64,000 nucleotides of DNA from Halorubrum salinum (GTDB lineage: Archaea > Halobacteriota > Halobacteria > Halobacteriales > Haloferacaceae). Below, one piece after another: positions 47,970 through 49,912 of the stretch. Location: contig NZ_JANHDO010000003.1 in NCBI RefSeq assembly GCF_024494575.1, positions 1-64,000 of the forward strand, read 5' to 3'. Within the stretch, counting starts at the first letter, position 1; the number at the start of each line of letters is the position of its first letter. The notes beneath the pieces are model-generated. The model worked only from the letters and a program-made list of their open reading frames with translations. It searched no databases and was not told the DNA's origin. The position numbers were made by a program, and so were the translations under genes.

Positions 47970-48137
47970 CACCGGCGGTACGCGAGTGCGGCGTTTAGTG
48001 GTTCCGGAGCGGTCTGCCCGGCCGTCTATACCGGTAGTCCGCCGTCTGCGGCGTTTCGTCGCGTCGGGGCACACCTCCGCGCGAACGCGAGAACGTCCGG
48101 TCGTCCTCGTCGTCCGGGCCGTCGATCCCTATCGCAC

Positions 48138-48944
48138 CTATTTCGGGGGCGAGCTCGACGGAAGCGAGCCGGTGCGGTCCGGTTTCGCGAGTCGACGAGC
48201 GGCCGCCGCGGAGACCGTCACGCGCCCGTCGCCGACGCTCACGGGCTCGCCGGTCACGTCGGCCAACACGTCGCGGAGGGCGTCGAGATACGCGCGCGAC
48301 CGGTCTTCCTGAATGACTCGCGTGTCTTTCGTCTCGTACGTGAGCGCGCGGTGGCCGACGTAGATCCGGACGAACGACTCGCGGAACGGTTTCGGCACGT
48401 CCCACACGACCTGCGGGAACGAGTCGAGCCCCGCCTTCTCTCCGACCGGGGCACCGATCGCGACGAGGCACCGACCGAGCACCGATGCGTCGGCGGCCGG
48501 AACCACCTCCGTCGCGCGGTTGTCTACGTCGGAGTTGCGGGTGAGAATACCGATACCGAGCGCCTCGAAGACCGAGCGCACCTCATCGGTCGTCACCGAG
48601 TCGTCGACGGTTATCGCCGGAACGAACGTGTCGTTGATGCTGCCGCCCGCGAGGACGTGTGCGAGGAGGTCGACGAACGCGGCAGTGGTCGCCTCGTCGG
48701 GGTCGAGCCAGCCGTGACCGATCGCCGTCTGGATACCTCGGACCGAGTCAGGCATCCCGCCGTCGAGCCACCCTCGAACGCGGCTCGGTGGGAGATCGAG
48801 AGCGCTGCCCACGCGCGTTCGGCCGTGGTTCGGGTGTTCTGCGGCGTACTCGCGGACGCGGCGATAGTCGAGGACTTTCTGCCACGGGTCGGGGTACTCG
48901 CGGTCGCTGTAGGTCCGAGCGAGGGCCTGCGCCGTGGGGTACAT
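48138..48944 (-). CDS. HTH protein with LAGLIDADG-like core (possible domesticated endonuclease fold)
   Basis: This 268-residue protein has an N-terminal helical/HTH part (YRRVREYAAEHPNHGRTRVG, LPPSRVRGWLDGGMP). The middle contains FVDLLAHVLAGGSIND followed by FVPAITVDD and FEALGIGILTRNSD, and then VLGRCLVAIGAPVGEKAGLD with PKPFRESFVRIYVGHR. This alternation resembles a LAGLIDADG endonuclease fold, but the catalytic acids are lacking (GG and VGH replace DG). A dead, DNA-binding relative as in bacterial WhiA would fit. The ATG at 48944 was chosen over an upstream GTG. It lies 168 nt upstream of rfcL on the same strand. The family call is uncertain. Confidence 0.6.
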   Translation of the reverse strand: MYPTAQALARTYSDREYPDPWQKVLDYRRVREYAAEHPNHGRTRVGSALDLPPSRVRGWLDGGMPDSVRGIQTAIGHGWLDPDEATTAAFVDLLAHVLAGGSINDTFVPAITVDDSVTTDEVRSVFEALGIGILTRNSDVDNRATEVVPAADASVLGRCLVAIGAPVGEKAGLDSFPQVVWDVPKPFRESFVRIYVGHRALTYETKDTRVIQEDRSRAYLDALRDVLADVTGEPVSVGDGRVTVSAAAARRLAKPDRTGSLPSSSPPK

Positions 48945-49116
48945 ACCCACGAATCGAATCAGTGACACCTTGAACGTAGCGGGATGGTTTTCAACGCTGA
49001 GATTTTGGCCAACACGTACATATACCAGATTCGCGTAGCATCAAGTAGCCAGCAACCCGACGGACGCGACCGCGGTAGGTCGTACTCGCGTCTTCGGCCG
49101 ACGCTGGGTGCAAACC

Positions 49117-49584
49117 ATGAAACTATTCAACCAAAACACAGCGGACGACCGCGCCGTGAGTCCTGTTATCGGAGTTATACTTATGGTCGCAATCACTGTC
49201 ATCCTCGCGGCCGTCATCGGGACCTTCGTGCTCGGTCTGGGCGATCAGCTAGGTGATACTGCGCCGCAGGCGAGCTTCGGGATTGACGACGTTTCCACAG
49301 ATGCGGCTAATAATAATGTCACTTTCACCCTCACAAAAACTGGTGGACAGGATCTTGAGGCAGCCGATCTGACTCTATCGGTTGAAGGTGCCCGTTCGGA
49401 TACAGACATCACCGACGGGAGCCATCTGGATTCACCGACATGGCAAACGGGCCAATCTGTAGACTTTACTGATGAGCCCGCTGGTGGATCCATCTCCTTC
49501 GCATCGGGCGATCGTCTTACGATCCGCGTGATCCACGAGCCGTCTGGTAACGCGATCTACTCAACGACAATCACAGCCGAGTAA
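49117..49584 (+). CDS. Type IV pilin (PilA-like)
   Basis: This 155-residue pilin has a short charged leader ending in DDRAVSPVIGVILMVAITV. This is the haloarchaeal H-domain motif, cut by PibD before the hydrophobic helix (to about residue 40). The mature part is a Thr/Asp-rich beta domain ending TTITAE. It would assemble into adhesion pili. Codon use is AT-richer than the neighbours, for example runs of AAT and ACT. The start is the ATG at 49117. The gene sits between the HTH gene and tRNA-Pro. Confidence 0.92.
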   Translation: MKLFNQNTADDRAVSPVIGVILMVAITVILAAVIGTFVLGLGDQLGDTAPQASFGIDDVSTDAANNNVTFTLTKTGGQDLEAADLTLSVEGARSDTDITDGSHLDSPTWQTGQSVDFTDEPAGGSISFASGDRLTIRVIHEPSGNAIYSTTITAE

Positions 49585-49912
49585 TCTACGTCTAAATTTA
49601 TTTTCGCCGGCTTTCTATTTGAGTCCAGTACCGCAACCCAAACACATCGGTGTTGAACTGTTGGATCGTTACGGGGTCCAATTCATCGCGAGCAGTGCGG
49701 ATATTTTCTTCAGACTGAATCAAGTGCGCGAGAGTCACAAGTCGATCAGGACATAGAACTCCCATAACTGACTCCGGTTACGTCGGTACTCCTCCGATGA
49801 GAGGGGCGTCGGCTACTACCGCCCCAAAATTGGTTGACTGTCGTGGAAAACTGAGCCGCAAGCATGTGTCTCGACGGGCAGATGTTTCTGACGAAAAGTG
49901 TTTTATTTTGAG
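49585..49912. other. AT-richer spacer with decayed-gene fragments next to tRNA-Pro
   Basis: This is a 328-nt region of lower GC than the window. It contains no full gene but two overlapping minus-strand fragments that suggest a broken gene (see separate entry). T-rich stretches are present near 49600 and 49900. Confidence 0.5.
49598..49765 (-). pseudogene. Decayed or very small gene fragment
   Basis: The minus strand encodes 55 codons from an ATG at 49765: MGVLCPDRLVTLAHLIQSEE, then NIRTARDELDPVTIQQF and a basic end (ESRRK) before TAA. The composition is protein-like, with hydrophobic and charged alternation. A second frame just upstream reads SSEEYRRNRSQLWEFYVLID before a stop, so the two could be one gene broken by a frameshift. 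I do not recognise the family. It may also be a random frame. Confidence 0.3.

Follow-up and report, generated by a model that had tools for sequence, protein, structure and literature searches.

A predicted cleavage-dead LAGLIDADG protein paired with type IV pilin genes in haloarchaea, a candidate regulator of surface cassettes

The window analysed here, a 64,000-nt stretch of Halorubrum salinum DNA, carries at 48138–48944 on the minus strand a gene whose 268-residue product is, in the reading that we consider reasonably probable, a LAGLIDADG-derived protein that no longer cleaves DNA and regulates the surface gene next to it. The support that is observed consists of the loss of the catalytic acids, purifying selection, pairing with a type IV pilin, duplication together with that pilin, carriage by plasmids and presence in one virus. 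To these observations we add DNA binding, the target and the sign of regulation, all of which we infer.

In the proposed mechanism, a homing-endonuclease-like ancestor would have given rise to a protein combining a helix-turn-helix (HTH) with a pseudo-symmetric LAGLIDADG domain, which would then have been retained as the dedicated partner of a surface gene, most often a type IV pilin and less commonly an S-layer glycoprotein. The HTH and the LAGLIDADG saddle would bind at the shared promoter or elsewhere in the cassette without cutting, as WhiA does. The protein would regulate the adjacent pilin and also its own gene, the latter being proposed because the pair is either divergent or operon-like, and each mobile surface cassette would carry its own switch.

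Predicted fold of the protein

The reading frame, stop codon included, begins with an ATG that is the start favoured by the aligned homologues; an alternative in-frame GTG at 48968 would extend the product to 276 residues. The initial annotation had described this frame and its strand correctly, along with two peptides quoted from the product, LLAHVLAGGSIND (residues 93–105) and ESFVRIYVGHR (residues 189–199). The closest named relatives come from Halorubrum laminariae (82%), H. halodurans and H. rubrum. For the comparison of relatives, 55 of 66 homologue ORFs were aligned, the rest being four tandem proteins and seven sequences that are fragments or duplicates, have a broken frame or contain N (L059_b, L049, L004, L004_b, L065, L088 and L062).

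Searches of Pfam and NCBIfam with the 268-residue protein gave no family at E 10, a PDB sequence search gave chance matches only, a PDB profile search gave no LAGLIDADG match, and no LAGLIDADG model was among the Pfam families listed (25 of 29) for the 55 relatives at E 1; by sequence, therefore, the protein matches no LAGLIDADG Pfam model. When a profile of the family (48 of the 55 alignment rows) was compared by hhalign with haloarchaeal PF14528 intein regions (n=30), the two aligned over columns 85–228 with a score of 42.2, a probability of 76% and an E value, for this one comparison, of 2.2e-5, while scores were 13.3 with the reversed profile and at most 17.7 with 50 column-shuffled ones. 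Both LLAHVLAGGSIND and ESFVRIYVGHR are in register with the two intein LAGLIDADG helices, which correspond here to residues about 82–101 (48642–48701, minus strand) and about 185–200 (48345–48392, minus strand), and this register puts the catalytic Asp positions at G100 and R199. Given this match, and since G101 and R199 are invariant in the 55 aligned relatives, the proposal that the two peptides are LAGLIDADG-like repeats stands above chance.

AlphaFold2 models built from only four sequences were of low confidence for the full-length protein (mean pLDDT 48.0, pTM 0.39) and of moderate confidence for the domain (mean pLDDT 60.1, pTM 0.59). A repeated alpha-beta-beta-alpha pattern is seen in both. 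At its moderate confidence, the domain model (helix 10–24 and, further on, helix 111–125, strands 128–131 and 134–138, helix 143–157, strands 162–164 and 167–171, and helix 172–179) has the two helices, each followed by beta-beta-alpha, of the LAGLIDADG superfamily. LAGLIDADG proteins filled ranks 1–42 of the Foldseek list for the full model (best E 0.032) and ranks 1–47 for the domain model (best E 0.0094), with no match of either model reaching E 0.001. They also made up rows 1–41 of the VIA-align list for the domain model, including I-DmoI (4un7_G; Z 9.0, rmsd 5.0, 139 residues), the first unrelated row having a Z of 4.7; for the full model the best row was an intein (Z 8.5, rmsd 4.5, 129 residues). 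Since a best Z of 7–8 is usual for models without relatives, the consistency of these lists outweighs the Z values themselves. Taken together, two computational lines, the profile comparison and the structure models, point with moderate strength to a LAGLIDADG fold. The check by structure and profile prediction that had been suggested for the protein thus came out in favour of this fold, and a model lacking it, the outcome that would have spoken against the idea, was not obtained.

A putative HTH at residues about 20–60 (48765–48887, minus strand) is formed in the low-confidence full model by helices 20–36, 42–48 and 53–60. HTH models give weak scores in a few single members and stronger ones in tandem forms, one of which is clear (CENP-B_N, 8.1e-7, in L040). 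The tandem proteins, 513–535 residues long, contain two HTH plus LAGLIDADG-like units per chain (L040:7053–8636, L043:7151–8755, L050:6997–8535 and L053:7221–8813), a hint that the single-unit protein would act as a dimer.

Loss of the catalytic acids

At position 100, the first catalytic site, the 55 relatives have Gly (35), Cys (10), Thr (5) or Phe (5) and in no case an acid, and at position 199, the second, all 55 have Arg. The acid that ends each LAGLIDADG helix of an active homing endonuclease is thus absent from both, bearing out the earlier suspicion that the catalytic acids had been lost. Nei–Gojobori dN/dS values of 0.094–0.279 in 15 pairs of homologues (16 pairs were tried, one giving no value) indicate that the form lacking these acids is no pseudogene but evolves under purifying selection. 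With the ORF, the profile comparison, the models and fold searches, and the dN/dS values considered together, the protein is best read as a cleavage-dead LAGLIDADG derivative.

Pairing with type IV pilins

Divergent from the gene and separated from it by a 172-bp intergenic region, at 49117–49584 on the plus strand, lies a gene for a 155-residue archaeal type IV pilin, recognizable by its class III signal, conserved H-domain and Pilin_N domain (PF07790, E 1.4e-22). Of 65 homologues, 55 have the start of such a pilin at most 600 bp upstream, in divergent orientation in 34 cases and on the homologue's own strand in 21; the corresponding figures are 16 of 836 when all other genes in the loci are counted and 1 of 423 among those more than 3 kb distant. 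These 65 rows are the 66 homologue ORFs minus L004_b; fragments were kept, as was the pair L088/L089, whose members are identical. The gaps between same-strand pilins and the gene are 24–133 bp (22 rows).

The same pairing is found on plasmids. Among 22 matching plasmid records, seven regions were viewed; an annotated type IV pilin adjoins the gene in six of these, and a surface glycoprotein lies nearby in the seventh (Salinigranum rubrum). The pilin pairs include those of Halobacterium salinarum pNRC200, where the homologue is VNG_RS13700, and Halorubrum lacusprofundi pR1SE2. Pilins also persist in genomes where the gene is absent or fragmentary, so the gene is dispensable for having a pilin. 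The initial annotation had suggested control of pilus genes; the physical pairing is now established in 55 of 65 homologues, and regulation itself is the part that we infer.

Duplication, mobility and viral carriage

The genome contains a second copy of the gene, with a protein product 91% identical to the first, and the two strongest Pilin_N matches of the genome are the pilins of these two cassettes. A single blastn block (84.7% over 1604 columns) joins window positions 48137–49734 to L056:7837–9422 on contig G000:C1 and spans the gene, the intergenic region, the pilin and the end of a DUF7386 gene, so the duplicated cassette comprises gene, promoter, leader, pilin and remnant. The DUF7386 gene is intact beside the second copy (E 7.9e-46); in the window it is a truncated remnant at 49607–49738 on the minus strand (tblastn of the L056 protein, 44 residues at 84%). 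The second copy also has a tyrosine-recombinase-like gene in its vicinity, about 1.2 kb away.

A single-protein search matched 59 of 148 family genomes, and a profile search 134 of 292 class genomes in 47 of 77 genera, with up to five matches per genome. Within Halorubrum, 37 of 52 genomes had a match at E 1e-6, some of them fragments only. Truncated or broken copies were seen at G071:C9:211189–211332, G123:C11:79912–80112, G352:C7:29878–30339 and G342:C1:3145208–3145865, those of G071 and G123 being about 240 bp from an intact pilin. PADLOC returned nothing for the 268-residue protein.

The cassette also occurs in a virus. Protein gp09 of the temperate pleolipovirus SNJ2 is a homologue (35.7% identity), and gp10, encoded divergently from it at L158:4188–4652, is a Pilin_N pilin (PF07790, 3.8e-16); both are annotated as hypothetical. 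A second pilin-like ORF, absent from the SNJ2 annotation, follows gp10 at about L158:3673–4167 (both on the minus strand of the locus). SNJ2, with two records, was the only virus matched in the phage collection, and scans of IMG/VR with three queries gave no viral homologue. The 268-residue protein matches PHROG phrog_14115 at E 6.8e-91, a family whose function is unannotated there, so viral relatives do exist. As far as the portion of PMC13107129 used here goes, orf4–orf10 of SNJ2 were deleted as a validated lysogeny/lysis region in making a minimal replicon. A virus-borne pilin cassette becomes directly testable. We would go further only tentatively: dead homing endonucleases may serve as private switches with which haloarchaea exchange and mutually silence surface types, and the SNJ2 cassette may re-dress its host, for example by altering adhesion or by blocking rival viruses.

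This mobility also fits a different account, in which the protein is a homing or recombination factor: bound to the cassette, it would nick residually or recruit host enzymes, thereby favouring transfer, duplication or gene conversion of the cassette and with it the spread of pilin alleles. The patchy distribution, at both family and genus level, speaks for it, as do the two loci in this genome, the decayed copies beside intact pilins, and the carriage by plasmids and SNJ2; in addition, PMC5867893, in the portion drawn on here, puts forward the hypothesis that transfer of the Haloferax pilA2/glycosylation island is connected with a free-standing endonuclease of another kind (PF03161). However, both acids are missing in all 55 relatives under purifying selection, unlike in a homing gene that decays after fixation, and no insertion-site specificity was found, the flanks differing between the two copies here and among relatives. 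We therefore regard such a factor as unlikely.

Promoter box and leader hairpin

Returning to the regulator that we favour, the region between gene and pilin contains two conserved elements. Alignment of 24 divergent cassettes revealed a pilin promoter box at 48988–49022 (plus strand), with the pattern TTTTC-N5-TGATA-N5-GNCA-N2-A-N-GTACATA, which ends in a TATA-like element. With up to three mismatches, the box is present in 41 of 52 congeneric genomes, namely 30 of the 37 that have the gene and 11 of the 15 that lack it (presence of the gene being scored at E 1e-6, fragments counted). The gene-free genomes that carry the box rule it out as a dedicated operator.

The second element is a hairpin in the pilin mRNA leader at 49041–49116 (plus strand). 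Its 76 nt are 100% identical in the second cassette (L056:8741–8816), whereas the C-terminal parts of the two pilins share 61% identity. The hairpin is found in PilA-type pilin mRNA leaders of Halorubrum and ends about 10 nt before the ATG. In an alignment that was fitted to the structure and holds three weak, probably chance matches (A7; E 0.78–0.97), covariation is strong: 94.4% of cells are paired, and changes on both sides occur in 83 cells, compared with 6–20 in slid versions. All eight pairs of the inner helix have two-sided changes; the number of pairs with such changes was reached by 95 of 500 shuffles. At E 0.01 the covariance model found only the two pilin leaders in this genome, and a search of Rfam gave six matches up to E 5, none above the gathering score and none on the leader. 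The covarying hairpin is a candidate RNA element for the control of archaeal pilins.

LAGLIDADG maturases bind RNA, so it is worth weighing whether the protein binds this hairpin and sets how efficiently the pilin mRNA is translated or how stable it is. The strong covariation just before the pilin start codon and the full identity between cassettes whose pilins have diverged would suit such a role, and the fold searches did return a maturase, bI3. Yet the box and hairpin also precede pilins that have no partner gene, and the hairpin has matches in two genomes without the gene (G013 and G138), which excludes it as a private element of the gene, while the N-terminal HTH points to DNA. We consider RNA control by this protein improbable. 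Since box and hairpin both occur without the gene, they are elements of the pilin and not private operators, and this non-exclusivity is what weighs most heavily against the regulator that we propose in its simplest form.

Exceptions to the pilin pairing

Ten of the 65 homologues have no pilin start within the 600 bp upstream: L075, L087, L049, L045, L048, L052 and the tandem proteins of L040, L043, L050 and L053. L075 has pilins at 1.6 and 2.0 kb upstream, beyond an intervening gene; at L087 they lie downstream, and L049 is frame-broken. Five of the exceptions (L040, L043, L045, L048 and L052) are near S-layer glycoprotein genes, with TIGR04216 matched above its curated cut-off at L040 (1.6e-224) and L043 (5e-216), and below-cut-off scores to TIGR04216 or NF041335 at the other three. 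These five homologues, and pilin promoter elements that do not track the presence of the gene, are what one would expect if the protein regulated mainly other genes (archaella, S-layer or prophage) and the pilin were co-travelling cargo; the tight pairing with pilins in two geometries, divergent and operon-like, makes this a decidedly unlikely account.

The rfcL neighbour

The gene does lie upstream of rfcL on the same strand, as had been stated initially, its stop at 48138 facing the upstream edge of the rfcL ORF at 47972; the accompanying suggestion that it controls DNA replication did not hold up. In 30 rfcL loci, read from 39 congeneric genomes with rfcL, the gene adjoins rfcL (within 1,500 bp upstream) in only two, the window and L164. 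There is no rfcL near the second copy of the gene, and at six loci of other species the flanks, rfcL and tRNA-Pro, are 228–727 bp apart, compared with about 1.9 kb in the window, with no cassette between them. On these three observations we reject replication control through rfcL and regard rfcL as an incidental neighbour. The interval itself, from rfcL to tRNA-Pro(ggg) (window 47973–49912), is variable in Halorubrum: 6 of the 30 loci have a pilin without the partner gene, two have both, and several species lack the cassette. The stretch between tRNA-Pro and the cassette additionally encodes, in H. laminariae (L001), a 1441-residue protein resembling type IIG restriction enzymes.

Comparison with known systems

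LAGLIDADG homing endonucleases such as I-DmoI, PI-SceI and the haloarchaeal PF14528 inteins share with the present protein the two repeats per chain. They differ in that here both acids are replaced, an N-terminal HTH is added and the gene is stably paired with a surface gene; no intein or intron context was found in the loci read. The Haloferax endonuclease near pilA2 is likewise a LAGLIDADG protein outside introns in a region with a type IV pilin, although it belongs to another Pfam family, PF03161, which the 268-residue protein does not match; in the part of PMC5867893 used here, its authors propose island homing for it and not regulation. Predicted regulators of archaeal type IV pilus loci (PMC4858521, in part) are also encoded beside pilus genes. 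The main text of that paper, to the extent used here, does not mention LAGLIDADG, homing or intein, and its supplementary tables, in which further regulators are given, may list the family under an arCOG. In the literature searched, we found no description of this family. The new elements are the family, its domain order, the pairing with surface genes and the carriage by a virus, and the variation of haloarchaeal pili and S-layers gains a concrete candidate regulator.

The closest parallel is WhiA (DUF199), a sporulation regulator of actinobacteria that is conserved in Gram-positives. It has no nuclease activity and is a LAGLIDADG-derived regulator that does not cut. Like the present protein, it joins a LAGLIDADG-type domain and an HTH in a single chain. 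The likeness to WhiA drawn in the initial annotation stands at the level of the fold, the domain model aligning with Streptomyces WhiA (8dy7_I) at Z 8.1 (rmsd 5.8, 158 residues) and with WhiA 3hyj_D and 3hyi at Z 6.1, and falls at the level of family membership. The domain order is reversed, with LAGLIDADG N-terminal and HTH C-terminal in WhiA, whereas here the HTH occupies residues 20–60 and the LAGLIDADG region residues 82–255. The WhiA model PF14527 has no match to the protein or elsewhere in this genome; among the class genomes it has sub-threshold matches, at intein positions, in 2 of 21. In contrast to WhiA, the protein is archaeal, patchily distributed, borne by plasmids and a virus, and paired with surface genes. 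To our knowledge, few regulators derive from homing endonucleases, the classic case being WhiA, and a second, independent-looking archaeal family with the opposite domain order would show that selfish DNA has given rise to regulators in this way more than once.
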